64,000 bases of DNA from Spartobacteria bacterium (lineage in GTDB: Bacteria; Verrucomicrobiota; Verrucomicrobiia; Chthoniobacterales; UBA10450). The position numbers and the translations under genes are program-made. Within the stretch, counting starts at the first letter, position 1, and every line of letters starts with the position of its first letter. Positions 37,526 through 54,872 of the stretch are shown here, in pieces. The notes below the pieces were generated by a model. The model worked only from the letters and a program-made list of their open reading frames with translations, searched no databases and had not been told where the DNA came from. Location: NCBI GenBank assembly GCA_003167555.1, contig PMSN01000022.1:124001-188000 (forward strand). Direction: 5' to 3'.

Positions 37526-38755
37526 TCAGTTTTGCGTTGCGGTGAAGCGGACCGGCAGCGCCGTCAATCCACGCAGGCCTGAGTTTGTGCGCCAGGTTAG
37601 CGGGCCCGGCACAACCTCCAAATTCGGAAGCCGACGCAAGATCGTCTCGAAAGCGATTTGTCCTTCCATGCGTGCCAGTGGTGCGCCGAAACAAAAGTGA
37701 CTCGACCAGCCAAAAGCCAGGTGCTTGTTGTCGGCCCGGTCGAGAATGAGTTCGTCCGGTTGGGGAAAACGCTCGGGATCGCGATTGGCCGCCGCCATGA
37801 TCGCCATGACCGCCTGCCCTTTGCGAATTTGCTTGCCGCCAATTTCCACGTCCTCGCGGGCGATGCGCCCCGTGTGCTGGCTCGGGCTTTCGTAGCGAAG
37901 AAGTTCTTCCACGCCCGAAGAAATGAGATTCGGATCGTCTCGCAAGCGCGCGAGTTGTGCGGGATTTCGCATGAGGGTGAGCAATCCGTTGCCGATGAGA
38001 TTCGTCGTCGTCTCCTGCCCGCCCACCATCGTCACGACACAATTGGCGATGATCTCTTCTTCCGACAACCGATCGCCGTCCATCTCGGCGGTCATGAAGG
38101 AATGAATCAAGCCTTCGCGCGGGTGTTCGCGCATCTTTGCGATCGCGTCTCGAAAATAATTCGTGAGATTGTTGGTGCTCTCGAGCACGCGGGGAATGCG
38201 GTCGGGGTTATGCTGGAAATTTCCCAGCATCTCAGCAAAATCGGCCGACCATTTTTTCAAATCGGAATGATCTTCGGTGGGAACTCCGAGCATCTCTGCG
38301 GTCACGATCGCGGGCATGGGTGCGGCGAAATCCTGGATGAGATCCATCTCTCCGCGGGCTTGCACGCGATCGAGCAGATTGTCGGTGATCTCCTGAATGT
38401 GGCCCTTCAATACTCGCACCTTTTGCGGCGTGAAAGCCACCGAGGCCAGCCCTCGCAACCGCGTATGAGCCGGCGCGTCCATGAAGAGCATCTGTTTCAC
38501 CATGACTTTCGCGATCGCGTTGAGTCCCGATAACCCCATCGCGGTCAATTGTTCCGGCGTCGGCGTGCGGTCGGCGGAGAAAGAATGCAGGACATTGAGG
38601 ACATCGGGATAACGAGTGACGACCCAGGTGTGGAGAAACCGATCCCAATGCACCGGATCTTCGGAGCGCAGCTTGTGATAGAGCGGATAGGGATTCGCCA
38701 GAACCTCCGGTTCAAGAAGCCGAACGAGGCTCAGACTGGAATCAGACGCGGCCAT
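37526..38755 (-). CDS. cytochrome P450, predicted NRPS tailoring monooxygenase
   Basis: The 409-residue bacterial P450 has the I-helix (GGQETTTNLIGNG), ExxR (LLRYE and following) and the heme-binding loop LAFGWSSHFCFGAPLAR with Cys355 as the iron ligand. Sequence style matches the CYP families that hydroxylate aminoacyl groups on carrier proteins. It overlaps the A-T gene stop (ATGA-type overlap at 38755) and precedes the C-A-T gene, an arrangement typical of beta-hydroxylation of a T-bound amino acid. A redox partner is not encoded nearby. Confidence 0.93.
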   Translation of the reverse strand: MAASDSSLSLVRLLEPEVLANPYPLYHKLRSEDPVHWDRFLHTWVVTRYPDVLNVLHSFSADRTPTPEQLTAMGLSGLNAIAKVMVKQMLFMDAPAHTRLRGLASVAFTPQKVRVLKGHIQEITDNLLDRVQARGEMDLIQDFAAPMPAIVTAEMLGVPTEDHSDLKKWSADFAEMLGNFQHNPDRIPRVLESTNNLTNYFRDAIAKMREHPREGLIHSFMTAEMDGDRLSEEEIIANCVVTMVGGQETTTNLIGNGLLTLMRNPAQLARLRDDPNLISSGVEELLRYESPSQHTGRIAREDVEIGGKQIRKGQAVMAIMAAANRDPERFPQPDELILDRADNKHLAFGWSSHFCFGAPLARMEGQIAFETILRRLPNLEVVPGPLTWRTNSGLRGLTALPVRFTATQN

Positions 38756-40701
38756 TACTGGCGATTGGTATTTGCAGCCAGCGGCTCGTCCAGGGCGGCG
38801 AGCGCGGCCTCTACTTCAGCTTCGGTCATGGCGTCGAGTTGAAGCGTGAGCGCTTTCTCTATCCTCAGCGAAAGCTCGGCCACGGTTGGAGCATCGAAGA
38901 CGTCAAGCAATCTGAGTTCTGTTCCAAATGCGCCGCGCACTCGGGCGATGATCTGCGCTCCGAGCAAGGAATGAGCTCCGAGATCAAAGAAATCGTCGTC
39001 CACACTGACGCGCGGCGCTTTGAGGACTTCGCAGATAATCCCGGCGAGCGTTTCTTCCACCAGAGTTCGCGGTGCAATGAATTTTCCATCTCGCGCGTCG
39101 TCATCCGTCGTCGGAACCGGCAACGCCGCGCGATCCACTTTTCCATTGGGCGTGAGTGGTAACGACTCCATCCAAACAAACGCAGCCGGATCCATATAAT
39201 CTGGCAGGCGGCGCCGGATCAATTCCCGCAAGCTTTGCAGGTCTCGTTGAGAATCAGCGCGGTGAACCAGATAAGCAACGAGTCGCTTATCGCCCGGTAC
39301 GTCCTCGCGGACGATCACAACACTTGCCTGGACCGAAGGATGTTCGTTGAGAACGGCATTGATCTCGTTGAGTTCGATCCGATAACCGCGAATCTTGATC
39401 TGGTCATCAATTCGTCCTAGAAAAGCGATCTCGCCGTTCGGAAGAAACCGCCCGAGATCGCCGGTTCGATACATTCGGTCACCTTCTTCGCCGAAAGGGT
39501 CAGCCACGAATCTCTCGGCGGTGAGGTCCGGTCGATTCCGGTAACCGCGAGCAATCCCACCCCCGCCAATATAAATCTCACCCGTCGTGCCGCGCGGAAG
39601 TTCGCGGCGCTCTTCGTCCAGAATGTGAATGCGGACTTTGTCGATCGGCCTTCCGATGGACGGCAGACCTTCACCGGTCTTCTCGGCGCCAATCACGCCG
39701 GAGGTCGCCACCACTGTGCACTCGGTCGGCCCGTAATTGTTGATGAAGGAAAATGGCAAGCCCGGCAATGGGTAACGCTGAAGAGTATCCGCCCCAGTGA
39801 GAAGAAAACGCAGAGCGCTGTCCGCGGGCCATGGCCGTGCAATCATTTGCTCAGCTATCGCAGTCGGAACAAAGCTGATCGTAATTTTGTGGCTGATCAG
39901 CCAAGCGCGAAGAGAGTCAGCCGACAAGCGAGTGGACTCATCGGGCAAATGGACGGAGGCGCCCACAGCCAGGTACGGCCAGACTTCCCAAACCGCTGCA
40001 TCGAATCCCACCCCGGCCTGGAAGGTCGTGCGTGTCGAAGAATCGACGCCAAACGCCTTCACGTGCCAGGAGATAAGATGGGCCAAATTGCGATGCGTGA
40101 TTTCGACACCTTTCGGCTGTCCGGTTGAGCCGGAGGTGTAAATGACGTAGGCGAGATTATCGAGACCTTCAGCCACCGCCTGCGACTGAACCGGTCGCTG
40201 GCCGCTCCCGCTTAGCTTCGCATCCAGAACGACAACCCTGACCCCAAAATCCTGGAAGCGGCCCGCGAAATTCTCCTGAGTGACAAGGAGGCGAACGCCA
40301 GCGTCCTTTATGATGAAGCGCAATCGTTCCGATGGATGCGCCGAATCCAGGGGAAGATATGCCGCGCCCGATTTCATGATGGCGAGGGCGGCAACTACAA
40401 ATTCCGGGGATCGTTCGACACAAAGCCCGACGAGAACTTCAGGTCCAGCTCCCAGCGAGTGCAGCTCATTAGCCAACCGTTCTGCGCGAAGTTCCAATTC
40501 GCCATAAGTCAGTTTTTCGGAGTCGGTCGCCAACGCCACTTTATCTGGATGCTGTTGCGCTCGTGCGGCAACGAGACACGGCAACAGAGTCGCCGAGGAC
40601 CGTTCTTGCGAACTGGCAGCAGATGCGAGCGGATTACGCTCCAGCAGCACGTTCGTTTTGTTCTCGATCAGCATCGTGATTCTTTCGCTTCTAATGTACA
40701 A
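38755..40701 (-). CDS. stand-alone NRPS A-T initiation module, predicted Leu
   Basis: The 648-residue protein has A (about 25-545) and T (DDFFDLGAHSLLGAQI) with no condensation domain, so it should start the peptide. Core motifs are intact (YTSGSTGQPKG, GFDAAVWEVW, NNYGPTECT, YRTGDLGRF, IRGYRIELNEIN, NGKVDR). The ten pocket residues read D-A-W-F-L-G-N-V-V-K, identical to a published canonical Leu code. The C-terminal 30 residues are Ala/Glu-rich. It is the first NRPS gene in the operon. Confidence 0.93.
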   Translation of the reverse strand: MYIRSERITMLIENKTNVLLERNPLASAASSQERSSATLLPCLVAARAQQHPDKVALATDSEKLTYGELELRAERLANELHSLGAGPEVLVGLCVERSPEFVVAALAIMKSGAAYLPLDSAHPSERLRFIIKDAGVRLLVTQENFAGRFQDFGVRVVVLDAKLSGSGQRPVQSQAVAEGLDNLAYVIYTSGSTGQPKGVEITHRNLAHLISWHVKAFGVDSSTRTTFQAGVGFDAAVWEVWPYLAVGASVHLPDESTRLSADSLRAWLISHKITISFVPTAIAEQMIARPWPADSALRFLLTGADTLQRYPLPGLPFSFINNYGPTECTVVATSGVIGAEKTGEGLPSIGRPIDKVRIHILDEERRELPRGTTGEIYIGGGGIARGYRNRPDLTAERFVADPFGEEGDRMYRTGDLGRFLPNGEIAFLGRIDDQIKIRGYRIELNEINAVLNEHPSVQASVVIVREDVPGDKRLVAYLVHRADSQRDLQSLRELIRRRLPDYMDPAAFVWMESLPLTPNGKVDRAALPVPTTDDDARDGKFIAPRTLVEETLAGIICEVLKAPRVSVDDDFFDLGAHSLLGAQIIARVRGAFGTELRLLDVFDAPTVAELSLRIEKALTLQLDAMTEAEVEAALAALDEPLAANTNRQ

Positions 40702-42314: not shown

Positions 42315-42407
42315 CGATCAGAGGGTGGAGGATTCATGTTTTGCATAGAAGCACGACAGAGTTGATTAGCCAAGCGTTGGCCGCAGTTATTTCGTAGCGC
42401 AGAACAA

Positions 42408-42424
42408 GAAACGCCCAACGTTTC
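42408..42424. promoter_or_regulatory. palindromic box, copy 1 (GAAACG-N5-CGTTTC)
   Basis: A perfect 6-bp palindrome with a 5-nt spacer (GAAACGcccaaCGTTTC), inside the 21-bp direct repeat ACAAGA / ACAAGT. It is at the left edge of the island next to the truncated protease. No plus-strand gene follows closely, so this copy may be an orphan. Confidence 0.6.
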
Positions 42425-43034
42425 ACAAGTGGGGGGGAGCGGTATGGGTGATTAGAAATGCGCGTTGCTCGCGGCTGCCCGAATACGAAGCGACTTTTCC
42501 AGCCCGCAGAACCGGAAATCCGGCGGCGGTTCCAGGCAATACTTTCGGAAATTCCGCGAAGAGGACATCCCGTCCGGCCCGCGGACGATCGCGGTCCGCT
42601 CCGATCGCATTCTCGTTTAGGAAAGATGGGAATCTGACGATGTCGAAGAGCTGAGGCGGAATTGAAATCTCGAACGCTCCAATATCGTAAAGCGGATGCT
42701 TCACGAAGATCGGTTGCTTAGATGAGGGCGGACGGAGTTCGAACAGCATCACGTGGGGGTCGCTTCCGACGTCGCCGATTCTCGCCGCGAGATAAAACGG
42801 TCCGTGAGGGGCGGTAGACAGGATGTGGGCCGCAGTAACTACGACCACCGTCTTACCGGGGCCGGATGACTGGCGCGGAACAACGACGAAGCAAGTGGCT
42901 AAGCCATGCTTGGTCCCGAACGCGTAAGTGGACCACATCATTTTCTCCGAAGGATTCAGACCGTTTCCCAAGGAAAGGGCAGGTATCGCAGCGCACCCAG
43001 CAAGATTCGTTGCGATCAACAGGGGGTAAGGCAC
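42423..43034 (-). pseudogene. truncated trypsin-like protease (lipoprotein), catalytic Ser missing
   Basis: A GTG start gives a short signal with lipobox LAGC. The His (VTAAHIL) and Asp (YDIGAFEI) regions of a trypsin-like fold are recognisable, but the ORF stops after RAFLITHTAPPHL, where the GNSGG nucleophile motif should follow. The 3' end runs through a G7 homopolymer. The gene lies at the left end of the island and is likely decayed; a sequencing error at the homopolymer cannot be excluded. Confidence 0.6.
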
Positions 43035-43236
43035 TCTTTCGGAAGAGTCGGCCCACCGGCGAATTCAAGATTGTCATACTTGGCACCTGCTTTCTGCGTT
43101 TAGCGTCCTCCTTGTGATCACTTATGGCTCGCCAAGGGTTGCCATAGTCTCATCAAAACTTGTGATTCACTTTTGCGCGCCGGGTTTACCGAATAGTGAG
43201 GCGTTCGGTTGCGGACCCGCGGAACGAGCACGCCAA

Positions 43237-43253
43237 GAAACGCGCTGCCTTTA
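43237..43253. promoter_or_regulatory. palindromic box, copy 2
   Basis: GAAACGcgctgCCTTTA in the same register as the other copies, preceded by CCAAGA and followed by GCAATC 21 bp later. It ends 47 nt before the ATG of the first universal stress gene. Confidence 0.65.
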
Positions 43254-43300
43254 GCAATCGGTGCCGAGCGCAACGACTTGGCTGGCGGCAATCTGAACCC

Positions 43301-44419
43301 ATGAAAAACCGCGATTTCAAAAACATTCTGGTGCCGGTCGACTTCTCAGGAGCAACCGAGCGGGCGATAGAAACCGCGCAGAAGCTCAGTCGACGTTCCG
43401 GCGCCGCCATTCATCTCGTCCACGTGGACGAATACTACTACCCGGTGGGTTTCATGGCGCCGGGAGCCCCTGTTCCGATGTCGATGATCACGTTTCGTGA
43501 GGACAATGCAGAGCGAATCCGCAAAGAGCTCGGCGCGTTAGCCAGGAAGTTTGAGATCCCACCGATAAACTGTTACATCCGGAATGATCACCCAGTCTTC
43601 AATGGAGTCTGTAGGGTGGCACGGCAGATCGAAGCGGATCTGATCGTCCTCCAGACCCACGGCCGCACCGGTTTCACGCGCTTCTTTGAGGGTAGCCACG
43701 CGGAGCGCATCGTGCAGCACTCACCTTGTCCGGTATTGGTCGCTCGTAAACGAAGGAGAAAGGTGGGTCGTCCGTCCGGCGCGGACACGACCGGGAGCAT
43801 CGATAGCATTCTTGTTCCGGTGGATTTCTCTCAATGTTCATTCGAGGCGCTGGAATATGCGATTCAGTTTGCCGAGCGAGTGGCGGCCCATCTCATCGTC
43901 TTTCACGCGGTCTATCTTGACTACGCATACACCGCCGACGGCTATGCCATGGTCGACCTTTCTGCTCTCATAGATAGGGCGCGCAAGGATGCGGAGCTAG
44001 AGATGCAAAAATTCGTGTGCCTGGCGAAATTCCGAGGCGTAAAAGTCGAGACCGTCGTCACACTCGCCCCGCCCCGACCAGACATTTGCGGGTTTGCGGA
44101 AAAACGCGATGTCGATCTGATCATCATCGCCACGCACGGGCGAACAGGCTTGAAGCATCTGTTGGTGGGGAGCGTTGCCGAACACGTGGTCCGTCACGCG
44201 CGCCAGCCAGTTTTGGTTGTGCCATCGCATCCGGAGACCAGAATGGCGAGATTGACGCGCGAAACCCGGCGCAACCAGCGAACAATCGCTGAGCCTGCAA
44301 GAAAGCACTCCTTGCAGGTTTCCATCGGTGGACTGACAAAACGAAACCGAAAGCTGGTCGAGCATGCATTTCCGGAACGGCGCAAGGTAAACAAGTTCCG
44401 TGAATCACATGCGCCCTAA
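43301..44419 (+). CDS. tandem-domain universal stress protein 1
   Basis: ATG 43301 is chosen because MKNRDFKNILVPVDFSG begins the first USP domain; the longer frame from 43196 adds unrelated residues and crosses the regulatory box. Domain 1 is residues 1-160, domain 2 about 168-310, followed by a basic tail. Both contain the ATP-binding THGRTG-x6-GS pattern (THGRTGFTRFFEGSHAE, THGRTGLKHLLVGSVAE), so both may bind nucleotide. It is first of a run of four such genes spaced by 5-71 nt and is presumably part of a stress or energy-limitation response. Confidence 0.88.
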   Translation: MKNRDFKNILVPVDFSGATERAIETAQKLSRRSGAAIHLVHVDEYYYPVGFMAPGAPVPMSMITFREDNAERIRKELGALARKFEIPPINCYIRNDHPVFNGVCRVARQIEADLIVLQTHGRTGFTRFFEGSHAERIVQHSPCPVLVARKRRRKVGRPSGADTTGSIDSILVPVDFSQCSFEALEYAIQFAERVAAHLIVFHAVYLDYAYTADGYAMVDLSALIDRARKDAELEMQKFVCLAKFRGVKVETVVTLAPPRPDICGFAEKRDVDLIIIATHGRTGLKHLLVGSVAEHVVRHARQPVLVVPSHPETRMARLTRETRRNQRTIAEPARKHSLQVSIGGLTKRNRKLVEHAFPERRKVNKFRESHAP

Positions 44420-44424
44420 CGAAT

Positions 44425-45504
44425 ATGAAGAAGTTCGATATCAAAAACATCCTTGTCCCTGTCGATCTCTCCAGAATGTCGATTCAGGGAATCGAAACGG
44501 CGAAGCGTTTGGGCCGGCGCTTCGGGGCGACGATTCACGTTGCGCACGTTTGGGAGCCGCTCTACGCAAAGGCGTTCGTAGCGCCGGCGGTCGCCTGGGG
44601 GGAATTCTCGATATCGCTTGCCGAAGAAACCAGAAAACAACTCGAGCAACGGCTCCGGACGATCGCTTCCAAATGTGGTTTGTCACCCAGCGACAAAACA
44701 CACTTCAGAGAAGGGGCGCCGGCGTTCGATGTCGTTTGCGGCCTGGCCGCTGAAATCCCAGCCGATCTGCTTGTCGTGCCGACGCGCGCTTCCAAAGGAA
44801 TCAAGCGCTTCTTTCTCGGAAGCACAGCGGAACGGCTCATTCAGCACAGCCCCTGTCCTATCCTCGTAGATCGAAAGTCCGCGGCGCAGTTGTCATTTAA
44901 TAATTCGTTACCGGTCGGACAGGCGCTTCGCATCGACAAGATCCTGGTACCCGTGGATTTCTCCGACTGTTCGCGAGAGGGCCTGCGATACGCGATCGAA
45001 TTCGCCCGCAAATTCGCCGCGAAAATCACGGTGCTTCACGTCTTGGACCCCGGGTATTCGGAACCGAAGGATATGCGCACAATGCAGCATCTCGGAGGTT
45101 TTGCGGGTGCTTCGGTGAGACGGGTTCTTAGGGAGGTGCGGCAGGAAATGCGCAAATTTGTCAGATCAGTTGCGTTCGGGCGCACCAAGGCGAACAGCGA
45201 AATTACAATCGGGCCGCCGGTCGAACAGATAAGTGACTTCGCCCTCGCGAATGATTTTGACCTCATCATCACTTCGACCCATGGCCTGACGGGGTTCAAA
45301 CATGTTCTCATCGGCAGTATCGCCGAGCATCTTGTGCGGCAATCCCGTGTTCCGATTCTCGTGGTTCCGTCGCATCCGAGTGTGAGGGCCGCCAACCTGG
45401 CCGGCATTCGCGAGTCGCGGAAGCAATCGCGCCAAAAACCCGGCGTGTCAGAAGGCGGACGAAGAATTTCGAAACGGCGTCGCGCCAATGTCTCGCGCGG
45501 TTGA
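44425..45504 (+). CDS. tandem-domain universal stress protein 2
   Basis: The 359-residue protein starts 5 nt after the previous stop. Domain 1 (MKKFDIKNILVPVDLSRMS) ends in LGSTAERLIQHSPCPILV. Domain 2 (IDKILVPVDFSDCSREG) has TSTHGLTGFKHVLIGSIAE. The nucleotide-binding Gly residues are retained in domain 2, while domain 1 has a deviating motif (RASKGIKRFFLGS). It is co-transcribed with its neighbours. Confidence 0.9.
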   Translation: MKKFDIKNILVPVDLSRMSIQGIETAKRLGRRFGATIHVAHVWEPLYAKAFVAPAVAWGEFSISLAEETRKQLEQRLRTIASKCGLSPSDKTHFREGAPAFDVVCGLAAEIPADLLVVPTRASKGIKRFFLGSTAERLIQHSPCPILVDRKSAAQLSFNNSLPVGQALRIDKILVPVDFSDCSREGLRYAIEFARKFAAKITVLHVLDPGYSEPKDMRTMQHLGGFAGASVRRVLREVRQEMRKFVRSVAFGRTKANSEITIGPPVEQISDFALANDFDLIITSTHGLTGFKHVLIGSIAEHLVRQSRVPILVVPSHPSVRAANLAGIRESRKQSRQKPGVSEGGRRISKRRRANVSRG

Positions 45505-45510
45505 CCGCAT

Positions 45511-46506
45511 ATGCCAAATCGAACACCGCCAGGAAAAACAGAGGTTGAAGGGTCTTCGACCAGGCCGGCGGAGCCGCCGGAGTTGAAGATAAAAACTATT
45601 CTCGCACCCTCGGATCTTTCAGAGGAATCAATGCGGGCGCTTCAGTTCGCAATCCCGATCGCGGAACGATGTCGGGCCGACCTGCATCTCCTCTACGTCC
45701 ACGAGGGCGGTGCCGACTTTTCGGTCGATGCCATGTCACAAATGCTGCACGAAAGCGCCGAGATGAGGACGCGTCGAAAAAAAGAACCAGGCAAAGTCAG
45801 CTTGCTCCGAGCAGAAAATTCTCACGTCCTTATTGGTCGCGCGTATCTGAAGGTATGCGACCTCGCGCGCGAGCTTGAAGCTGACCTGATCGTCCTCGCC
45901 ACCCGCGGCAACACCGGATTGGTGCGCGTTCTCCTGGGCAGCACGGCGGAAAAAATTGTGCAGTTCGCACCTTGTCCGGTTCTGGTGACGCGGCAACGAA
46001 AAGATCAGATCGAACAAAAGAGTGCCAAGAAGGTATCTCCGGCACGTCTCGAATTCCGTCCGCACACGATTCTCGTTCCAGTCGATTTTTCCCAGAACTC
46101 CCTTGCGGGACTAAAGTATGCCGCGGGTTTTGCGAGCGCATTTGGAGCCAGACTTCGCTTGTTCCACGCGATTTTCCCTCCCAATCCGTTGGTCGTTGAC
46201 CGAATCAGCGCCAACGTTTCCGGGGAACTTGATGAAACCCGGCTCGTGAATGCGCAGATGGAGATGGAAGCGCTCATGTCCTTGGCTTTCTTGCGCGGAG
46301 TGCCGTGTCAAACAGCGCTCCGGCGCGGTTATGCGATTCAGGAAATCTGCGACGAGATTGAGCGTGCGGACATTGATCTCGTCATCACTTCTACGCACGG
46401 AGAAACGGGACTCAAGCATGCGCTTCTTGGCAGCGTCGCGGAGCACGTCGTGCGCTATGCGACGTGTCCCGTCCTTGTCGTTCCTTCAAGCACCCGCGCC
46501 GGATAG
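45511..46506 (+). CDS. tandem-domain universal stress protein 3
   Basis: 331 residues with two USP domains: IKTILAPSDLSEESMRALQF and the C-terminal TILVPVDFSQNSLAGLKYA. The first has ATRGNTGLVRVLLGSTAE and the second THGETGLKHALLGSVAE, both compatible with ATP binding. The start is 6 nt after the previous stop. A 71-nt gap with another copy of the palindromic box follows. Confidence 0.9.
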   Translation: MPNRTPPGKTEVEGSSTRPAEPPELKIKTILAPSDLSEESMRALQFAIPIAERCRADLHLLYVHEGGADFSVDAMSQMLHESAEMRTRRKKEPGKVSLLRAENSHVLIGRAYLKVCDLARELEADLIVLATRGNTGLVRVLLGSTAEKIVQFAPCPVLVTRQRKDQIEQKSAKKVSPARLEFRPHTILVPVDFSQNSLAGLKYAAGFASAFGARLRLFHAIFPPNPLVVDRISANVSGELDETRLVNAQMEMEALMSLAFLRGVPCQTALRRGYAIQEICDEIERADIDLVITSTHGETGLKHALLGSVAEHVVRYATCPVLVVPSSTRAG

Positions 46507-46513
46507 GAGCCAA

Positions 46514-46530
46514 GAAACGCCCGGTCTTTG
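46514..46530. promoter_or_regulatory. palindromic box, copy 3
   Basis: GAAACGcccggTCTTTG, flanked by CCAAGA and GCAAGA at a 21-bp period. It ends 47 nt before the ATG of the fourth universal stress gene, indicating an internal promoter or operator. Confidence 0.65.
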
Positions 46531-46577
46531 GCAAGACGCGGCGAGAAGTCCCGCTGCTTTAGGAGCATCCTTTGCCC

Positions 46578-47591
46578 ATGAAGAGGATCATCGAGAAAGG
46601 AGAACCACCAATAAAGCCAAGCCGATCTCCGAGACTGGCATTGAAGCCGCGCGATCGAGAGCGAGCGCTGCGGATCAAGACTATTCTCGTGCCGTTGGAT
46701 TTTTCGCGGGCATCCATCCAGGCACTCAAATTTACGATCCCGCTCGCGAAAGAGTTCGGCGCCACCATTCATCTGGTTCACGTACAGCCCGCCGACGAGA
46801 TGACGGCAATCGAGAATGCTGGAGGTCTCATGCTCAGCTGCGCGGATTCGATTGCTCTAATGCAGGATCGTCTGAGTGAAGCTCTGCGCGAACAAGGCCG
46901 CTTCTGGCCGGACAATTGCCATGTCGTTTCAGGAAGGCCCTATGAGGAAATCTGCAAACTGGCGGGCCGAATTGAAGCTGATCTGATCGTTCTTTCCACT
47001 CGCGGCCTTGGCCGGCTGAAGCATGTGTTTCTCGGAAGCACCGCGGAACGCGTGATTCGTTATGCGTCGTGCCCGGTGCTGATCCCGCGCGGCGCGAGGT
47101 TCAAATCAATCACCTGGAACGGCGCGGCCGGCCTGTCTGGTTTCAAACTGCGCAAAATTCTTGCACCGCTGGATTTTTCCAAATGTTCCTTCGCCGGAGT
47201 AAGGTACGCCGCGTGTCTGGCGAGAGACGCGGGGGCAACTCTCCGGCTTTTCCACGTCGTTTTCCCTTATACTCAGCTCTTCGCCTTGGATCGGGCCAAC
47301 GGTGACCTTACACCCCTGATCAAGGCCGCCAAGGCGACGGCGCGGGAAGAGATGACCAAGCTCAGAGAAATGAGTTTCTTGCGGGACGTTCCGTGCGAGA
47401 CAGAAATCCGAACCGGACCTGTGATCGACGAAATCTGCCGCGAAAGCGGCCGACCGGAGATCGATTTAATCGTGACCTCCACCCATGGACACAGTGGATT
47501 TAAGCGCGCTGTAATCGGGAGCGTGGCCGAGCATGTGGTTCGCTACGCTGAATGTCCTGTTCTCACCGTCCCGAGCCGAGGGTTTTCTTAA
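46578..47591 (+). CDS. tandem-domain universal stress protein 4
   Basis: The ATG at 46578 (MKRIIEKGEPPIK) is preferred over the TTG at 46572. Domain 1 starts IKTILVPLDFSRASIQAL and has STRGLGRLKHVFLGSTAE; domain 2 starts LRKILAPLDFSKCSFAGVRY and has THGHSGFKRAVIGSVAE. The box 47 nt upstream suggests it leads its own transcript with the small ORF and ATPase gene downstream. Confidence 0.9.
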   Translation: MKRIIEKGEPPIKPSRSPRLALKPRDRERALRIKTILVPLDFSRASIQALKFTIPLAKEFGATIHLVHVQPADEMTAIENAGGLMLSCADSIALMQDRLSEALREQGRFWPDNCHVVSGRPYEEICKLAGRIEADLIVLSTRGLGRLKHVFLGSTAERVIRYASCPVLIPRGARFKSITWNGAAGLSGFKLRKILAPLDFSKCSFAGVRYAACLARDAGATLRLFHVVFPYTQLFALDRANGDLTPLIKAAKATAREEMTKLREMSFLRDVPCETEIRTGPVIDEICRESGRPEIDLIVTSTHGHSGFKRAVIGSVAEHVVRYAECPVLTVPSRGFS

Positions 47592-47592
47592 T

Positions 47593-47793
47593 ATGAGCGA
47601 CACGATGAAAGCGTTGATTAAGAAGAAGAGGAACGCGAGGCGCGTTTCCCCGAAAAATAAAACGGCCGATGTCAAAGTTTTGGGGCCGGTTATTCTGCAT
47701 CGGCGGAGCCCATCCGAATTTTCCTGCGGCGTGGACTTAGAACGCGCTCTTCTTGTCGAGGAGTCGCTGGATGAACGGGAACGAAGAGGATGA
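47593..47793 (+). CDS. small basic protein preceding ABC ATPase
   Basis: The 66-residue ORF (MSDTMKALIKKKRNARRVSP...) starts 1 nt after the stress gene stop and shares a 4-nt ATGA overlap with the ATPase gene. Its Lys/Arg-rich N-terminus suggests a nucleic-acid- or membrane-interacting peptide. No family is recognised. The tight coupling on both sides supports it being real. Confidence 0.65.
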   Translation: MSDTMKALIKKKRNARRVSPKNKTADVKVLGPVILHRRSPSEFSCGVDLERALLVEESLDERERRG

Positions 47794-48638
47794 CGACAAC
47801 CCAAACTCAACAAAACCCCGTTCGCGAAACGCGAAGCGAAAAGCAGAGGGCGCTTCCACCCATAGCTGAGCTGCGCGATGTCCGGCTTCGATTTGGAGAA
47901 AAGACCGTGCTTGATGGAGTATCGCTCGCGGCCTATCCGCAGGAACGCCTCGTCATCATTGGGCAAAGTGGGATGGGCAAGACGACGATCTTGCGGTTGC
48001 TCCTTGGAATTCTCGCGCCGACGCAGGGGTCGGTTTTCTTCAAGCAACATGAGATTTCGAAAATGAGCCCGCGTGAATTGCAGCAGATTCGAACTCGGAT
48101 CGGGATGGTTTATCAGGATGCCGCGCTTCTTAGTTCGAGCAGTGTCCGTGAAAATCTGGCTCTGCCACTCCAGGAATTGACGGACAAAAGTCCCGCGGAG
48201 ATCGACAAAATCGTCGACGAGAAACTGGCGTTGGTTGAGCTGACCGGCGAAGACGATACCATGCCTTTCGAATTGAGCGGTGGCATGCGGAAACGCGTCG
48301 GGCTCGCGCGAGCGCTGGTCATGGAGCCAGAGCTGATTCTTTTCGACGAGCCAACGCAGGGGCTCGATCCGGTTATCAGCGCGGTCATTGATGAGCTGGT
48401 CATCAACCTGACCGAGAGAACGAAGGTGACCTCAATCATCGTCACCCATTTGATGGACAGCGCGTTCCGCGTCGCCACCCGCATGGCCATGCTCCACCGC
48501 GGGAGGATTGTCGAACAAGGAACACCGGAGCAGATGCGAGGATCAAAGAACCCGGTCCTCGTTCAGTTTCTTAATGGCAGCACGGAAGGTCCGATGCTGG
48601 AACGAAGCAAATATCACATGCTTTCTCCCGCGGACTGA
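47790..48638 (+). CDS. ABC ATP-binding protein, MlaF-like
   Basis: Contains Walker A GQSGMGKTT, the Mla/Ttg2-type MVYQDAALLSSSSVRENLALPL segment, signature LSGGMRKR, Walker B LILFDEPTQGLDP and switch THLMDSA. MlaF-type ATPases power phospholipid transport to or from the outer membrane. No MlaE permease, MlaD or other partner is nearby, so it must work with subunits encoded elsewhere or have a different role. Confidence 0.88.
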   Translation: MTTTQTQQNPVRETRSEKQRALPPIAELRDVRLRFGEKTVLDGVSLAAYPQERLVIIGQSGMGKTTILRLLLGILAPTQGSVFFKQHEISKMSPRELQQIRTRIGMVYQDAALLSSSSVRENLALPLQELTDKSPAEIDKIVDEKLALVELTGEDDTMPFELSGGMRKRVGLARALVMEPELILFDEPTQGLDPVISAVIDELVINLTERTKVTSIIVTHLMDSAFRVATRMAMLHRGRIVEQGTPEQMRGSKNPVLVQFLNGSTEGPMLERSKYHMLSPAD

Positions 48639-48642
48639 GCGT

Positions 48643-49257
48643 TCAGGCGCGACGGCGCCGCAGACTTAGCCACAGAGCGGCGACGACGGCGCCGACAAAA
48701 GCCGCAGCCATGTCTTTCTGCGCGTCCCAAATATCTCCCTGCGTCCCCAGATAGGCGGTGCCGAGGTCTGGCCGGACGATCTGCGCGACGATAGCTTCCA
48801 CGATTTCAAAAAAGCTGCTCAAAGCTGCGAGCGCAGCCACGCTCAGCCAAGTCGCCCACTTTTTGTGCGCGCCCGCGAAATGCATCAAGAGATCACGCAT
48901 TGGATAAAGAAGGAGCAATCCGAAGCTGAAATGAATCAAGCGATCGTAGTGGTTGCGCTGCAAATGCAGCCAATCCTGTAACCAAAAACCCGCGGGCACT
49001 TTCGCATAAGTGTAATGCGCGCCGATCGTATGGATGGCGAGAAAGACGAGGATGAGAACATAAGACGCATTGGCAAATCGAAAGCGCCGGTAAGTCGAGC
49101 CGAGCACAATGGCAGTGACAAACACCAGTAGGTTTTCCAGCAGCCAATCGCCGCGATCAACGGGATGAATGGCAAGCGCGCTCCAAAAGAGCGCGTAAGC
49201 ACCGAGGGCAACAAGGAAGGAGCGATTGGTGATCCCGCCCTTAATTGCGAATTTCAT
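48643..49257 (-). CDS. DUF2238 membrane protein
   Basis: A 204-residue integral membrane protein with about six hydrophobic segments and the family segments IGAHYTYAKVP and RNHYDRLIHFSFGLLLLYPM. The YjdF/DUF2238 family has no established biochemical role. It overlaps its paralogue at 49254-49257 and is convergent with the ATPase gene (4-nt gap). Confidence 0.85.
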   Translation of the reverse strand: MKFAIKGGITNRSFLVALGAYALFWSALAIHPVDRGDWLLENLLVFVTAIVLGSTYRRFRFANASYVLILVFLAIHTIGAHYTYAKVPAGFWLQDWLHLQRNHYDRLIHFSFGLLLLYPMRDLLMHFAGAHKKWATWLSVAALAALSSFFEIVEAIVAQIVRPDLGTAYLGTQGDIWDAQKDMAAAFVGAVVAALWLSLRRRRA

Positions 49258-49856
49258 CGCCGCTGATTTTTCCGTTCGATTAACGCGATCGCCGCGATCA
49301 TCAAAAGCGAGCCTACGAACGCCGAGAGCATGTCATTCTGCGCGTCCCACTCGTCGCCCTGGCCGGCGAGCCAATTCACTCCCTGCCCGGGCGCCACGAT
49401 TTCAGCCACGATGCTCTCAATAATCTCAAACAACCCGCTGACCGCGAGAATGACCGCGACCGCGAGCCAGAGACTCCAGCCCCGGCGCAGTCCGCTAAAA
49501 CGCAAAAGGAATTCTCTTACTGGAAACGCCAGCAGAAAACCAAACGCGCCATGGGCAAAGCGGTCGTAGTGATTGCGCGGCAGGTGAAAATAATTTTTCG
49601 CCCAGATGCCGAGCGGCATGTGTTCGTAAGTGTAGTGCGCGCCCACGATGTGAAGGATGATAAAGGCCGCGATGAGACAATAGGACGTGGTGGAAAGTTC
49701 CAGGCGCCGATGCCCAAAGAAAAGAACCGTAACGAAAATGATGAGGAGCAAGTTTTCCAGGACCCAGGCTTGCCGATCAAACGGATCGATCGCTGCGACC
49801 ACCCACAAAACAACGCAGATCGCTGCAAGTCCGAGAATAGCTTTTCTCTGATTCAC
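49254..49856 (-). CDS. DUF2238 membrane protein, paralogue
   Basis: A 200-residue paralogue of the downstream gene with the same landmarks (VGAHYTYEHMPLGIW, RNHYDRFAHGAFGFLLAFPV) and membrane-segment order. The two form an evident tandem duplication with overlapping ATGA junction. Their pairing within a stress island suggests a heteromeric membrane complex, but this is inferred. Confidence 0.85.
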   Translation of the reverse strand: MNQRKAILGLAAICVVLWVVAAIDPFDRQAWVLENLLLIIFVTVLFFGHRRLELSTTSYCLIAAFIILHIVGAHYTYEHMPLGIWAKNYFHLPRNHYDRFAHGAFGFLLAFPVREFLLRFSGLRRGWSLWLAVAVILAVSGLFEIIESIVAEIVAPGQGVNWLAGQGDEWDAQNDMLSAFVGSLLMIAAIALIERKNQRR

Positions 49857-49915
49857 GCAAAGGACTCTTAGTCAGACTTGCGAGGTTCGGTCTCGCGCCG
49901 ACGAAAAAGCACGGG

Positions 49916-50380
49916 CTAACACACCTGGCGCGCTTCGTCGTCGTCACTCGCCCGCTCGACAAAGACCCGCAGTTTATGCCGCGTTGCCTGGAGACGTTCA
50001 GTCAAGACTCTGGCCATGGCTTCCATCAGTTTGTACCCGAGCTTTGGGTCTTGTTCGCATTGTTTGCGGACATCCGCGGCGGAAAGGAATTTTGCGGTCA
50101 CAGCGCTGGCGGCAGTGGCGCTGAATTCCCAGCGATTGGGTTCAAAGAGCCACGACAATCCCAGTAATTCGCCGGGACCGAGGTTTTGAATCAGGACGGT
50201 TTTCTTGCCTGGAAGTTCGTATTCCAGACTAACCTCTCCTGTCTCAATCAGATAGAATCCGTTGGCTGTCTCGCGCTGGCGAAAGATGGATTCCCCTCGT
50301 GCGAATCGGACCTCTGTCGCAAGAAGAGATACCGCATCAGCTTGATCAGGGCTGAGTGCTGTCAAAAAAGAATGCTTCAT
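49916..50380 (-). CDS. cyclic-nucleotide-binding domain protein without DNA-binding domain
   Basis: The 154-residue protein contains a single cNMP/Crp-type beta-roll (FARGESIFRQRETANGFYLIETGEVSLEYEL, GPGELLGLSWLFEP) and a C-terminal helix, but no helix-turn-helix. It is therefore unlikely to bind DNA itself and may be a sensor subunit, a scaffold, or a partner of the membrane proteins next door. It starts independently of the neighbouring DUF2238 genes (59-nt gap). Confidence 0.87.
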   Translation of the reverse strand: MKHSFLTALSPDQADAVSLLATEVRFARGESIFRQRETANGFYLIETGEVSLEYELPGKKTVLIQNLGPGELLGLSWLFEPNRWEFSATAASAVTAKFLSAADVRKQCEQDPKLGYKLMEAMARVLTERLQATRHKLRVFVERASDDDEARQVC

Positions 50381-50439
50381 GGATGTAAGAGAATTTATCG
50401 AGGTCCGGGCGAGTCGGCGAGCATGCAGTTCAGCAAAAG

Positions 50440-52101
50440 CTAGAGCGGGGGCGTTGGCCGATCAGCGTTCTTTGGTGCGCGAACTTGTATCTCAGCCAAG
50501 CTCAGCAAAACCGATTTCGCGGCTGCTTCTGAAATTGAGCCGGATGTCTTGATCTTGATTAAATCGGGCCCGATCTCCGACGGGGCCTCATAAGCCGCGG
50601 TCAACATTGCGAGATTCTCCAGGCGAGCATCCGAGATCTCCTCAGAATTCGCCGCACGTGCCTCCAGCCGATTAGCGATCTCGCCTTTCTCCGTCTCGAG
50701 CTCAACCACTTGAAGAGCAACGTTGACCCGCGCGCATTCGGTGCGCAGATAATCGCGCTTTTCGCGACTCGAAAATGTTGCGTCCAATATGACGCCGCCG
50801 CCGGTGGCTACGGCGGCCAGTCCCCGTTCTACCAACTCGTTGTAAGTTCGATCGGTCATTTGCGGTGAGTAAACCATTCCGGTGATCTCCGATTCCGTCC
50901 GCTGCGTCAGCGGCACGCCGGCAAGGGCTTTCCGAACTCGATCAGACGAAAAAACCGGCCAATCCAGCTCATTCCCGAGCTGTTTTGCGACTGTGCTTTT
51001 GCCGGTCGCGACCCGTCCCATGATGACCAGGACCAAACCCTGCGATCCGCTAACGGCATATCGCAAGGCGAGGCGAAAGTAACGGGTCGCGCGCTTCGCG
51101 TGCTCCGCGGCCATCGACGCCCCGGTGGAAGTCGTTTCAATTGCCTCCACCTTGCCGCGCACAACGGCGCGATAACATTTGTAAAAATCTGCCACTTTTT
51201 GCAGGCCGGTGTCGCCAAATTCGTGGGCGGCATTTCGCAGAAACACCTTTCCCAATTCTCGTTTCCCTTCGAAATCGAAGTCCATGGCGAGAAAGGCGAG
51301 ATCGTTCGCGATGTCGATAAATCGCAGCCGATCGCTGAACTCAATGCAATCGAAGATCGTCGTCGCTTCCGGCGTGATATGAACGTGATTGAGACGCAGA
51401 TCGCCATGGCAATCGCGGATTCGATGTCGCTGGATTCGTTCATGAAATAGCCGTCCATTTGCGGCATAGAAGGAGTTCGTGAAATGCCGGATCGCATCGA
51501 AGGCGCCGCGCGAAATGGTCGTTCCCACAAATGTTTCCACCTGCGTGAAATTTTCGTCTGTGCTGACCTTCAACTTCTCTGGCGTACCCCATTCTTCGAT
51601 TTCCTGAGATGGAGTCTCCGTCTCGTAGAAGCGGTGCAGACGCGAGATCACGCGGTTGATCTCATTCTCTCCGACCAATCCCTTTTCGAGCAGCTCACTC
51701 AAGAACCAACCGGCCGGCAATTCCTTCATTTTCACCGCATATTCGACAGGCGTTCCGCCGGGCTTGAATGAAAGAACGCCGTCTTTCGCATTGATCGGAA
51801 TGACCTCCAGATAAACGTCCGGGCACAGCCTCCAATTCAATTCCAGCTCGCGTCGACAAAAGTGATGCCGCTTTTCCAAGGTGCTGAAATCTAGAAAGCC
51901 CAGATTCACCGGCTTCTTCACTTTGAAGACAAAAGGTGGAGCGACGAAGACCCAGGAAATGTGGGTTTGAATCGCGCGCACCTTGGCCGGCCGATGCGGG
52001 TAGAATGACGGCGATCTAAGGAACCGGACGAGCTGCTCCTGCTGCGTCTGTTCGTGCGCTTCCGAGCCCATAAGCAAACGTAGCGCTTCGCGCGAAATCA
52101 A
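50440..52101 (-). CDS. APH-like kinase fused to P-loop (AAA/kinase) domain
   Basis: The 553-residue protein has an aminoglycoside-phosphotransferase-like N-terminal domain (residues 1-350; Brenner motif CHGDLRLNHVHI and an Asp at FIDIANDLAF) and a C-terminal P-loop domain (GRVATGKSTVAKQL, ILDATFSSREKRDYL). This COG2187/COG0645-type fusion recurs in stress-related gene clusters of Gram-negative bacteria, and its substrate is unknown. It is divergent from the CBS gene. A box lies in the 190-nt space between them. Confidence 0.85.
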   Translation of the reverse strand: MISREALRLLMGSEAHEQTQQEQLVRFLRSPSFYPHRPAKVRAIQTHISWVFVAPPFVFKVKKPVNLGFLDFSTLEKRHHFCRRELELNWRLCPDVYLEVIPINAKDGVLSFKPGGTPVEYAVKMKELPAGWFLSELLEKGLVGENEINRVISRLHRFYETETPSQEIEEWGTPEKLKVSTDENFTQVETFVGTTISRGAFDAIRHFTNSFYAANGRLFHERIQRHRIRDCHGDLRLNHVHITPEATTIFDCIEFSDRLRFIDIANDLAFLAMDFDFEGKRELGKVFLRNAAHEFGDTGLQKVADFYKCYRAVVRGKVEAIETTSTGASMAAEHAKRATRYFRLALRYAVSGSQGLVLVIMGRVATGKSTVAKQLGNELDWPVFSSDRVRKALAGVPLTQRTESEITGMVYSPQMTDRTYNELVERGLAAVATGGGVILDATFSSREKRDYLRTECARVNVALQVVELETEKGEIANRLEARAANSEEISDARLENLAMLTAAYEAPSEIGPDLIKIKTSGSISEAAAKSVLLSLAEIQVRAPKNADRPTPPL

Positions 52102-52209
52102 CTACTTCGCTATTCGGTGGGGTCACGCTTGCGAAGAACTCCGGCGAATTCTGTGGATCCATCAGTCTGCTTTTGAACGAATCTTTTTCCGTCGTGGCTG
52201 CGTTCGCAA

Positions 52210-52226
52210 AAAACGGACAGCTCTTC
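52210..52226. promoter_or_regulatory. palindromic box, copy 4
   Basis: AAAACGgacagCTCTTC, with GCAAAA before and GCAAGA after at the 21-bp period. It ends 65 nt before the CBS gene ATG and 108 nt from the divergent kinase gene, so it could serve both. Confidence 0.6.
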
Positions 52227-52291
52227 GCAAGATGTGCGGAGCGGTTTGGCCACCGCTCTCTTAACTGGATGCAGAATGGCAAAACTAAATC

Positions 52292-52798
52292 ATGAAAGTA
52301 AAAGAAATTATGAACAAGGAGGTACACTCCTGTCGCTCAGACACAGACTTGGCAATGGCGGCGATGCAGATGTGGGACGGCGATTTCGGTGTCCTGCCAG
52401 TGGTGGCCAATGGCGGGACAGTCGTCGGGATAATAACAGACCGCGACATTTGCATGGCGACGGCGACCAAACGCTGCGATCCGGGACAAATCCACGTCGA
52501 GGACGTAATGACCGGGCAGGTTTATGGATGCTCGCCCGAAACGGAGATCCATGAAGCACTCAAGATCATGCAACAAAGGCGAGTGCGGCGGTTGCCTGTC
52601 ATGAGCGCGAATGACGGAAAGCTTGTCGGCATTCTGTCGCTGAATGATGTGGCGCTGAAGGCGCAAGCCGACGTGAAAGCTGCCCTCTCGGCACAAGATG
52701 TCGAATCGACCCTCAAGTCGATCTGCGCGCACCCGGAGTTCTCGCTGGCGATGCCGTTTCCAACAGCAGCGCCGAAGGCTGTGGCAATGGCCGGATAA
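52292..52798 (+). CDS. CBS-domain protein
   Basis: The 168-residue protein has two CBS modules: VKEIMNKEVHSCRSDTDLA to IITDRDICMA, and VEDVMTGQVYGCSPETEIHE to ILSLNDVALKA. They fold into a Bateman adenosine-nucleotide-sensing unit. The C-terminal tail is Ala/Pro-rich. Such free-standing CBS proteins are thought to sense cellular energy charge, consistent with the stress and PEP synthase genes nearby. Confidence 0.9.
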   Translation: MKVKEIMNKEVHSCRSDTDLAMAAMQMWDGDFGVLPVVANGGTVVGIITDRDICMATATKRCDPGQIHVEDVMTGQVYGCSPETEIHEALKIMQQRRVRRLPVMSANDGKLVGILSLNDVALKAQADVKAALSAQDVESTLKSICAHPEFSLAMPFPTAAPKAVAMAG

Positions 52799-52802
52799 AG
52801 GC

Positions 52803-52928
52803 GTGTTCAACACAATTCTCCGAACGATTAGCGCATGGCGGAAGGAGATCAGCGATTTCCTGTGGTGGGGTGGTCATCACGAGACCAGCCGGGATTTGAT
52901 ATTGCTGCGGGATCGCCTGTTAAACTAG
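52803..52928 (+). CDS. short ORF, uncertain
   Basis: A GTG-initiated 41-residue ORF (VFNTILRTISAWRKEISDFLWWGG...) 4 nt after the CBS stop. It is compositionally plausible but has no recognisable family. It could be a decayed gene end or a genuine small peptide. Confidence 0.3.
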   Translation: MFNTILRTISAWRKEISDFLWWGGHHETSRDLILLRDRLLN

Positions 52929-53341
52929 TTCGCGCTTCCTGCCGGAGAGCGGATGCAGTTGCCCAGGTTCGATTATCATTGGTGGCGCCCTGTAATCGCA
53001 CCCGGAAAAATCAACCCCGGCCTCGTCATTCCGTGGAATCGCCCGGTCCGATTTGATTACCAGCGCCAGGCCGATGCATTCAACCAAAGCCGTGATGATG
53101 GTGCACTTCGCGAATCTGCCTGGCAGCGACGTCGAGCGATGGCACAGCGTCTTTCCCTCTCCTTTGCACGGGCACCTCGCCTTATGGTGCCGACGAGATC
53201 TGCGCCGTCGGCAGCGCGGGCTATTCGGGGATGCTCCCAAGGCTCAGCCAAAAAGCCGGTCAGGAATCTGAAACAAACCCCGCCATCGCGCACTAGCCGA
53301 CGGCAGACCAACGTCCCGCGACGGCGGCAAACAATGGACCC
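52929..53341. other. non-coding or remnant region
   Basis: No ORF in this 413-nt stretch shows a recognisable domain. The open frames (for example 52953-53345 on plus and 52920-53240 on minus) lack start context and look like fragments in shuffled frames. It probably contains debris of former genes between the CBS and alcohol dehydrogenase units. Confidence 0.5.
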
Positions 53342-53449
53342 ATGAACCGAGTAAAAGACAAAGTGGCGATCATCACCAACTTGCAAGGCCGCGGTTTCCG
53401 ATTGGTGACGGTTTCCAAGCTGCTCGCGAGGGATCCGAAAAGGAATTGA
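53342..53449 (+). pseudogene. short-chain dehydrogenase N-terminal remnant
   Basis: The 35-residue ORF MNRVKDKVAIITNLQ... begins like a short-chain dehydrogenase (VKDKVAIIT then a normal GGxxGIG loop) but the loop is missing. It jumps to a helix-like SKLLARD and stops. This is interpreted as an internally deleted relic. Confidence 0.4.
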
Positions 53450-53480
53450 CGTCGGCAGGCTAGCTGGGTTGCCAGCGCAA

Positions 53481-53497
53481 GAAAGGGCGAACCTTTC
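53481..53497. promoter_or_regulatory. palindromic box, copy 5
   Basis: GAAAGGgcgaaCCTTTC is a perfect palindrome, with GCAAGA on both sides at a 21-bp period. It ends 64 nt before the ATG at 53562 of the alcohol dehydrogenase gene. Confidence 0.7.
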
Positions 53498-53561
53498 GCA
53501 AGAGCCGCCGAGCGTATTCGTGCTTCAGCCTCATGCTTTGGGCAGAAAGCGAATCACTCAC

Positions 53562-54695
53562 ATGAATGCACAAGCTCTCCTGACACAGACGCCGGTTCCC
53601 GTCCGGCATTACCCGCCGTCCGAAAGTTCTCGGCTTACGATGCGCGCAAATGTCTTCCGAGGACCGGACAAGATCGGCATCGAAGAAGTCCCGCGGCCGC
53701 GCCCCGGCGTGGGCGAAGCAGTCATTCGTATTACGCTAACGACGATTTGCGGGACCGATCTCCACATCCTGCGCGGCGAATACCCGGTGAAAGCTGGACT
53801 AGTGATCGGCCACGAACCAGTCGGCGTCATCGAGGAGCTGGGTGAAGGAGTCACCGGTTACGAGAAAGGAGATCGCGTCATGACGGGCGCGATCACTCCA
53901 TGCGGTCAGTGTCGCGCCTGTTTGTCCGCGCAATGGGCGCAGTGCGGACATGGCGAAGGCGTGGAAGCGATTGGCGGCTGGCGCTTCGGCAATACCATCA
54001 ACGGAGCACAAGCGGAATATCTCCTTGTTCCAAATGCGCAGGCGAATCTCGCGAAAATTCCCGCTGAGTTAACTGACGAACAAGTCGTGCTTCTTGCCGA
54101 TATCGCTTCGACCGGTTTTAGTGGCGCGGAGTCGGCTAACATTCGCATTGGCGACACAGTCGTCGTGTTCGCGCAAGGTCCGATCGGACTTTGTGCAACG
54201 GCCGGCGCGAAGCTGATTGGCGCGTCATTCATCATCGGCGTTGAGGGTGACCCAGTGCGGATGAGGATGTCGAAGCAGATGGGCGCCGACGTCGTTCTCG
54301 ACCCGAAGCAGTGCGATGTTGTCGCGGAAGTAAAGAAGCTGACCGGTGGAGGCGCCGATGTCGCCATCGAAGCGCTCGGTCTTCAGGAAACGTTCGAGAA
54401 CGCTCTGCGCTGCCTGCGACCCGGTGGGACGCTGAGCAGTCTGGGCGTTTACTCCGGCAAACTTCAGCTGCCGTACGACGCGTTTACCGCGGGTATCGGC
54501 GACTACAAAATCGTGACGACGCTTTGCCCAGGCGGAAAAGAACGGATGCGCCGGTTGATGTCGATGGTGCAGACGAAACGCTTCGATCCCACGCCGCTCC
54601 TAACGCACAGCTTCAACCTCGATCGAATCGTGGAGGCTTACGACCTGTTTGGGTCGCGGCGCGACGGCGTCCTGAAAGTCGCGATTCGGCCATAG
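53562..54695 (+). CDS. zinc-dependent alcohol dehydrogenase (MDR family)
   Basis: ATG 53562 is favoured because the upstream box-to-start distance then resembles that of the CBS gene; ATG 53640 (MRANVFRGPDKIG) is the common family start. Catalytic zinc ligands are in CGTDLHIL and GHEPVG. The structural zinc cluster is CGQCRACLSAQWAQC. The Rossmann loop is AQGPIGLCA. Related enzymes act on secondary alcohols or threonine. A role in fermentative redox balance is inferred from the stress-island context. Confidence 0.9.
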   Translation: MNAQALLTQTPVPVRHYPPSESSRLTMRANVFRGPDKIGIEEVPRPRPGVGEAVIRITLTTICGTDLHILRGEYPVKAGLVIGHEPVGVIEELGEGVTGYEKGDRVMTGAITPCGQCRACLSAQWAQCGHGEGVEAIGGWRFGNTINGAQAEYLLVPNAQANLAKIPAELTDEQVVLLADIASTGFSGAESANIRIGDTVVVFAQGPIGLCATAGAKLIGASFIIGVEGDPVRMRMSKQMGADVVLDPKQCDVVAEVKKLTGGGADVAIEALGLQETFENALRCLRPGGTLSSLGVYSGKLQLPYDAFTAGIGDYKIVTTLCPGGKERMRRLMSMVQTKRFDPTPLLTHSFNLDRIVEAYDLFGSRRDGVLKVAIRP

Positions 54696-54808
54696 TTGCG
54701 ATCGCAGCACTACCGACCGCGTGATGAGTGGAAGTTCGGGGTCAGGTGAGCGTCGGCTTTGAGGCTACCGCGCTGATCCGGTCATTGCTCGACGATCGAG
54801 GGGCGCAA

Positions 54809-54825
54809 GAAATGGGCGGCTTTTC
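54809..54825. promoter_or_regulatory. palindromic box, copy 6
   Basis: GAAATGggcggCTTTTC, flanked by GCAAGA and GCAAAA at the 21-bp period. It ends 47 nt before the ATG of the PEP synthase gene, the same distance as at two universal stress genes. Confidence 0.7.
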
Positions 54826-54872
54826 GCAAAAGCCGATGCGCGGATAGATGCGGCGAGAGGCAAGCTAACTTC

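Follow-up and report, generated by a model that had tools for sequence, protein, structure and literature searches.

Tandem 15-bp half-sites before stress and fermentation genes of a Spartobacteria bacterium: a probable AraC/XylS-type operator and its candidate regulator

A stretch of 64,000 nucleotides from a Spartobacteria bacterium (GenBank assembly GCA_003167555.1, contig PMSN01000022.1; here the window, G000:C6:124001-188000, G000 being this genome of 4.2 Mb in 29 contigs and C6, C12 and C24 contig labels) contains six copies of a 37-bp element. These sites are probably class-II operators of the AraC/XylS type, and a protein encoded on contig C12, which joins a PocR sensor domain to an AraC-type DNA-binding domain (PocR-AraC), is the most likely activator of the stress and fermentation regulon behind them, its binding being predicted. 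Indeed, tandem 15-bp half-sites with a 21-bp period, the proximal one at the polymerase site, are the published layout of this family, hence the assignment. The half-site tandem, the overlap with the -35 position and a candidate cognate AraC protein with a site at its own operon are all found here.

A preliminary description of this DNA had reported a palindromic box within a 21-bp direct repeat at 42408, 43237, 46514, 52210, 53481 and 54809. The six boxes are present at these positions, without indels between copies; the full element begins slightly upstream, position 0 of the motif being the first coordinate of each site in table 1. Its consensus over 73 sites of this and related genomes, gCAAgAAAcG-N3-AG-N2-TTTcgCAA-N5-G-N2-gAGc, is common to the six window sites, in all of which the columns CAA 0-2, AAA 4-6, G8, TT 17-18, CAA 21-23, G29, G32 and G34 are invariant. 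The repeat had been given as GCAAGA: its CAA recurs at the 21-bp period in all six copies, whereas the exact GCAAGA does so only at 46514, 52210 and 53481. A third conserved block, G-N2-G-N-G (mostly G-N2-GAGCG), lies 6 bp past the second CAA, is invariant in the six copies and had been overlooked; it completes the second half-site. Columns 0-14 and 21-35 repeat each other, and the core of the motif consists of two 15-bp half-sites repeated in the same orientation at a 21-bp period, not of a palindrome. Among the 73 sites, lag 21 is the only one with a positive autocorrelation (+6.5, the rest at -12 or lower), and site-wise identity reaches 0.78 at the key columns of the repeat versus 0.56 for the palindrome, although such within-motif statistics are partly circular, as the sites were picked with a matrix. 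A matrix built from the six window sites scores them at 47.7-54.3 bits and the next best place on either strand at 2.9, a gap of about 45 bits obtained with a matrix trained on the same sites.

A -10-like box, xA(A/T)nnT, occupies positions 55-60: its A and T occur together in 44% of the sites of this genome and 58% of those of its relatives, against a background of 0-18% for the same pair at nearly all other positions. As this box lies exactly 17 bp past positions 32-37, the proximal box B (AGc) occupies the -35 position. An ATG follows the motif by 29-33 nt in 40 of 77 sites, mostly 6-7 nt past the -10 box, and xA...T at the matching spacing to ATG is found in 9% of 158 long open reading frames (ORFs) of the same genome. 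Both the register of the -10 box and the offset of the ATG lie outside the search matrix, and are hence independent of site selection. The preliminary description had counted five copies with a plus-strand gene behind them, at 47, 47, 47, 65 and 64 nt from TTTC to ATG, and had proposed an operator or promoter element with a fixed transcription start. The distances are confirmed, and the element does behave computationally in this manner, with a predicted start in a fixed -10 register; the 47-nt spacing, however, is not invariant in itself and stems from start codons placed directly after a -10 box whose position is fixed. Because the ATG comes 6-7 nt after the -10 box, this distance is best read as leaderless transcription, predicted at about half of all sites. 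Sites 2, 3 and 6 would thus yield leaderless transcripts, and sites 4 and 5 transcripts with short leaders. No relevant literature was found on leaderless transcription in Verrucomicrobia.

The genome was searched by pattern searches and matrix scans of selected stretches, then with a profile of 24 sites, which returned 25 places at E<=0.0021, the next standing at 0.29. Controls were nearly empty: reversed patterns gave 0 and 1 matches, and the reversed matrix gave 1 match in 855 kb of related loci, versus about 50 with the true matrix. The sites are distributed over C6 (6), C12 (17, all but one within 102-213 kb) and C24 (2). Restriction of the regulon to the island, first suggested as far as the window shows, is therefore not upheld, 19 of the 25 sites being located on other contigs; the regulon is wider than this island, yet clustered.

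The genes behind these sites bear out the stress and fermentative character proposed for the regulon. In this genome, they encode six universal stress proteins (USPs), one of which heads the regulator operon, two alcohol dehydrogenases, phosphoenolpyruvate (PEP) synthase, a CBS protein, pyruvate:ferredoxin oxidoreductase (PFOR), a thiamine diphosphate (ThDP)-dependent decarboxylase, a 4Fe-4S pyridine-nucleotide oxidoreductase, uroporphyrinogen decarboxylase (HemE), phosphoribosyl pyrophosphate synthetase, a cupredoxin, a P-type ATPase, a 4Fe-4S ferredoxin-type protein, a lysine-decarboxylase-like SLOG protein, a polysaccharide deacetylase (behind a weak site) and probable extracellular proteins. 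Related genes, named by eye from sequence, are found behind sites of other genomes: USP in 10 genomes, a short AraC protein in 8, HemE and a small membrane protein in 3 each, and CBS, oxidoreductase, decarboxylase and Fe-S proteins in 2 each, with single cases resembling 6-phosphofructokinase, D-lactate dehydrogenase and Hsp20. More distant regulators (approx. 48% identical, mostly from Limisphaerales) have weaker sites nearby, which precede apparent ADP-forming acyl-CoA synthetases, cyclic-nucleotide-binding (cNMP) proteins and PFOR and keep the -10 box in the same register (A in 23/32, T in 20/32). This combination of pyruvate and fermentation metabolism with stress survival suggests a role in fermentative or low-oxygen survival. 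The PocR domain is reportedly predicted, by the title of one study, to sense simple hydrocarbon derivatives. Its ligand may, as a reasonable guess, be an alcohol or diol related to fermentation.

Two loci on C12 carry sites in less usual settings. At G000:C12:159418-159557, a strong site is followed, some 65-100 nt further on, by a 13-pair stem and a T-run with no ORF between; this element is a candidate small RNA of about 70 nt, for which no DNA match was found in 38 related genomes. A 111-aa ORF behind a good site (G000:C12:121315-121650) resembles the degenerate beginning of a protein of the isopropylmalate/isocitrate-dehydrogenase type, which in G008 occurs behind a site in a 372-aa form; the ORF is possibly a decayed member of the regulon.

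Among ten HTH_18 matches in the genome, the best is PocR-AraC (C12:210946-211887), located between two sites, with a Pfam PocR domain (E=8e-17) N-terminal to HTH_18 (E=1.2e-24). Its operon, which lies outside the window, consists of USP, cNMP-binding protein and PocR-AraC genes behind a site at C12:213126. The AlphaFold model is confident (mean pLDDT 84), and a fold search matched its C-terminal part to AraC-type DNA-binding domains, including those of the SoxS and RamA activation complexes; the sensor domain had no match in this search. Its nearest named relatives belong to metagenome-assembled genomes of Verrucomicrobia, Spartobacteria and Chthoniobacterales. In ten genomes (G000, G006, G007, G017, G019, G024, G042, G076, G093 and G094), the regulator has a same-strand site 0.7-1.5 kb upstream, with a chance expectation below 0.005 for each. 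Direct reading of the gene order gave USP, cNMP protein, PocR-AraC in G042 and G076; G093 and G094 have a USP gene behind the site and a cNMP-type ORF before the regulator. Across 83 genomes of the family, with orthologues defined by 61% identity or more, regulator and motif co-occur (15 genomes with both, 3 with the orthologue only, 6 with the motif only and 59 with neither; p=2.8e-9, an optimistic value because the genomes are related to one another). All nine genomes with two or more sites carry the orthologue, and in genus g14 G042 alone has a close orthologue and alone has sites (12). The search for earlier work on a USP/AraC regulon in Verrucomicrobiota, or on a PocR stress regulon, found nothing relevant. 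The window itself encodes, at 49916-50380 on the minus strand, a stand-alone cyclic-nucleotide-binding protein (Pfam cNMP_binding) without a helix-turn-helix (HTH), like that of the regulator operon.

Several observations weigh against PocR-AraC as the reader of these sites. At the threshold used, no site was found in three genomes that carry the orthologue (G001, G004 and G084), and a single site is present in each of six that lack a close one; of these nine discordant genomes, eight are less than 90% complete. G007, a close relative whose regulator is 93% identical, shows a single strong site only, so that either regulon size varies a lot or sites drift. Moreover, co-occurrence cannot show which AraC protein reads the sites, as a second one has a matching phyletic pattern. 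This short stand-alone AraC (C12:174256-174645) has a DNA-binding domain 46% identical to that of PocR-AraC, occurs in nearly the same genomes and is often encoded near it. In several genomes its promoters carry a variant site of the same layout (class 2), with T at position 5 in 7/7 and often A at 7. In G000, two divergent sites 21 bp apart (G000:C12:173974-174068) stand between the gene for the ThDP-dependent decarboxylase and that for the short AraC, and the class-2 variant precedes the short AraC in other genomes too. Shared control by the two regulators, a cascade between them or a takeover by the short AraC are possible. That the sites are AraC-type operators read mainly by the short AraC, or by both proteins in a cascade, appears unlikely but deserves to be kept in mind: the sites at its promoters form a class of their own, whereas those of the window belong to the class found before the PocR-AraC operon (class 1), and G003 and G072, where the short AraC is present but a close orthologue of PocR-AraC is not, show no class-1 site at the threshold.

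Explanations outside the AraC family fare less well. The preliminary description had emphasized the inner palindrome GAAAcG-N5-CnTTTC, which a dimeric regulator would bind, the direct repeat being incidental. Two copies are indeed perfect palindromes (arms paired 6/6 at 42408 and 53481; 5/6 at 54809, 4/6 at 43237, 3/6 at 46514 and 52210), and AAA and TTT are both present in 42 of the 73 sites. However, the arms vary independently (AAA without TTT in 16 sites, the reverse in 8, AAT in place of TTT in 10), whereas CAA is nearly invariant at both repeats; no conserved two-fold symmetric core of the FNR or DosR/NarL type emerged from the 73 sites, whose best centres of symmetry do not include that of the inner palindrome; and the conserved block at 29-35 is left unexplained. 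The palindrome is thus very improbable as the recognition core, and the independent variation of the A- and T-tracts would fit bendable DNA better than symmetric contact. Scarcely more credible, and if anything less so, is that the element itself is the promoter of an alternative sigma factor: this would account for the fixed distance to the start and for strong conservation over 37 bp, but a separate sigma-70-like -10 box lies in fixed register 17 bp past the element, which is too long and self-repeating to resemble two sigma hexamers. Finally, the constant length of the many copies and their clustering in parts of the genome could recall a dispersed or mobile family of repeats with no function in regulation; yet their flanks share only the -10 box and the start codon, and copies precede orthologous genes in different genera, so that we give this explanation almost no credit.

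Under the AraC/XylS-type reading, the 37-bp element would be the class-II operator of a dimeric activator, each monomer of which would touch box A (gCAA) and box B (AGc) of one 15-bp half-site through its two HTHs. The proximal box B would replace the -35 hexamer, 17 bp from the xA(A/T)nnT box, and the bound activator would recruit a sigma-70-type polymerase; transcription is predicted to begin with the start codon itself at about half of the promoters. PocR-AraC, behind its own copy of the site, would most likely be this activator and could be autoregulated. Its sensor may bind a small metabolite, possibly one of the short-chain alcohols or diols made in fermentation, under oxygen limitation or starvation, and the activator would then switch on USPs, the CBS protein, alcohol dehydrogenases, PEP synthase, PFOR, ThDP decarboxylase, HemE and others. 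While site anatomy, genome distribution, -10 register, operon context and co-occurrence were computed directly, we infer binding, activation, leaderless starts, ligand and physiology from them.

The mechanism, AraC-type class-II activation, is known; the operator and the regulon are undescribed, and the regulon is unusually broad for such a regulator. No matching work was found in the literature searched, and few Verrucomicrobiota regulons seem to be described. For an uncultured soil lineage, this defines a regulon, names a candidate for its regulator, provides an operator with which genomes can be scanned and predicts where transcription starts at most targets. If the PocR domain does sense a fermentation metabolite, the logic of low-oxygen or starvation control would differ from that of FNR or DosR. 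More speculatively, a two-tier AraC system, with PocR-AraC as sensor of a small metabolite and a MarA-sized AraC paralogue, might serve in Verrucomicrobiota as master regulator of fermentative survival in place of FNR/DosR oxygen or redox sensors, acting on dozens of largely leaderless promoters and existing in Limisphaerales in a divergent form of the same layout.

Table 1. Sites of the 37-bp element and genes behind them (window coordinates).
Feature	Coordinates	Strand	Half-sites	-10-like box	Remarks
Site 1 (orphan)	42405..42441	+	42405-42419, 42426-42440	no good -10 behind	no plus-strand gene behind
Site 2	43234..43270	+	43234-43248, 43255-43269	CAATCT 43289-43294	ATG 43301, predicted leaderless
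USP, 372 aa	43301..44419	+			first gene behind site 2; groups with USPs behind sites in other genomes
Further USP ORFs	44425-45504, 45511-46506	+			past the first site-2 gene
Site 3	46511..46547	+	46511-46525, 46532-46546	CATCCT 46566-46571	ATG 46578, predicted leaderless
USP, 337 aa	46578..47591	+			behind site 3
Site 4	52207..52243	+	52207-52221, 52228-52242	weak	CBS ATG 48 nt past motif, short leader predicted
CBS-domain protein, 168 aa	52292..52798	+			Pfam CBS; CBS gene behind a site in G016 too
Site 5	53478..53514	+	53478-53492, 53499-53513	CATGCT near 53532-53537	ATG 53562, short leader predicted
Zinc-dependent alcohol dehydrogenase, 377 aa	53562..54695	+			Pfam ADH_N, ADH_zinc_N; paralogue on C12 with its own site
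Site 6	54806..54842	+	54806-54820, 54827-54841	CAAGCT 54861-54866	ATG 54873, predicted leaderless
PEP synthase, 815 aa	54873..57320	+			PPDK_N, PEP-utilizers

Site 1, alone among the six window sites, is not followed by a gene on the plus strand. Its sequence overlaps with the 3' end of a trypsin-like (protease-like) ORF on the minus strand (42423-43034), and it scores among the best sites of the genome despite lacking both a gene and a good -10 box behind it; a search of Rfam around it gave no match. It may be an orphan, antisense or relic site. Of the four USP ORFs that follow one another on the plus strand between 43301 and 47591, only the first and the fourth are preceded by a site. Elsewhere on C12, near 133.7 kb, an AraC DNA-binding domain, cut within its second HTH, is continuous with an apparent B12-binding radical-SAM protein in a 710-aa frame, and a frame of similar length (702 aa) is present in G024:C26. 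Minus-strand ORFs at 37526-40701 of the window, recognized by eye, consist of an adenylation and carrier-domain ORF (648 aa, nonribosomal peptide synthetase-like) and, directly after it, a cytochrome P450-like ORF (409 aa), possibly a small natural-product unit.

Low-oxygen regulons governed by FNR/ANR or DosR include USPs, alcohol dehydrogenase, PEP synthase, PFOR and haem synthesis among their targets. The kinds of targets overlap with those described here; however, these regulators belong to other families and use symmetric operators, whereas no such palindrome is conserved in the present sites. Salmonella PocR, an AraC-family protein, responds to 1,2-propanediol, glycerol and 1,2-butanediol and controls the pdu and cob operons; the boxes reported for its binding in Pcob measure 20 and 48 bp (PMC11264322). 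By domain architecture, a PocR sensor domain ahead of an AraC DNA-binding domain, it resembles the candidate regulator, and it is an activator; its control of pdu/cob differs from the stress and fermentation regulon found here. The closest likeness in operator layout is with the XylS operator at Pm of the TOL plasmid, TGCA-N6-GGNTA-N6-TGCA-N6-GGNTA, and with the similar ones of MekR and MtlR (PMC4514859, PMC5481539): two direct 15-bp half-sites, each with a box A and a box B, at a 21-bp period. As with the proximal half-site here, the XylS site overlaps that of the polymerase; the gCAA of box A resembles TGCA, and an A-tract adjoins the half-site in the XylS and MtlR sites as well. The present element differs from that of XylS in its box B, AGc instead of GGNTA, in the A-tract/T-tract pair of its distal half-site, in its presence at about 25 promoters rather than at one or a few, and in its predicted leaderless starts.

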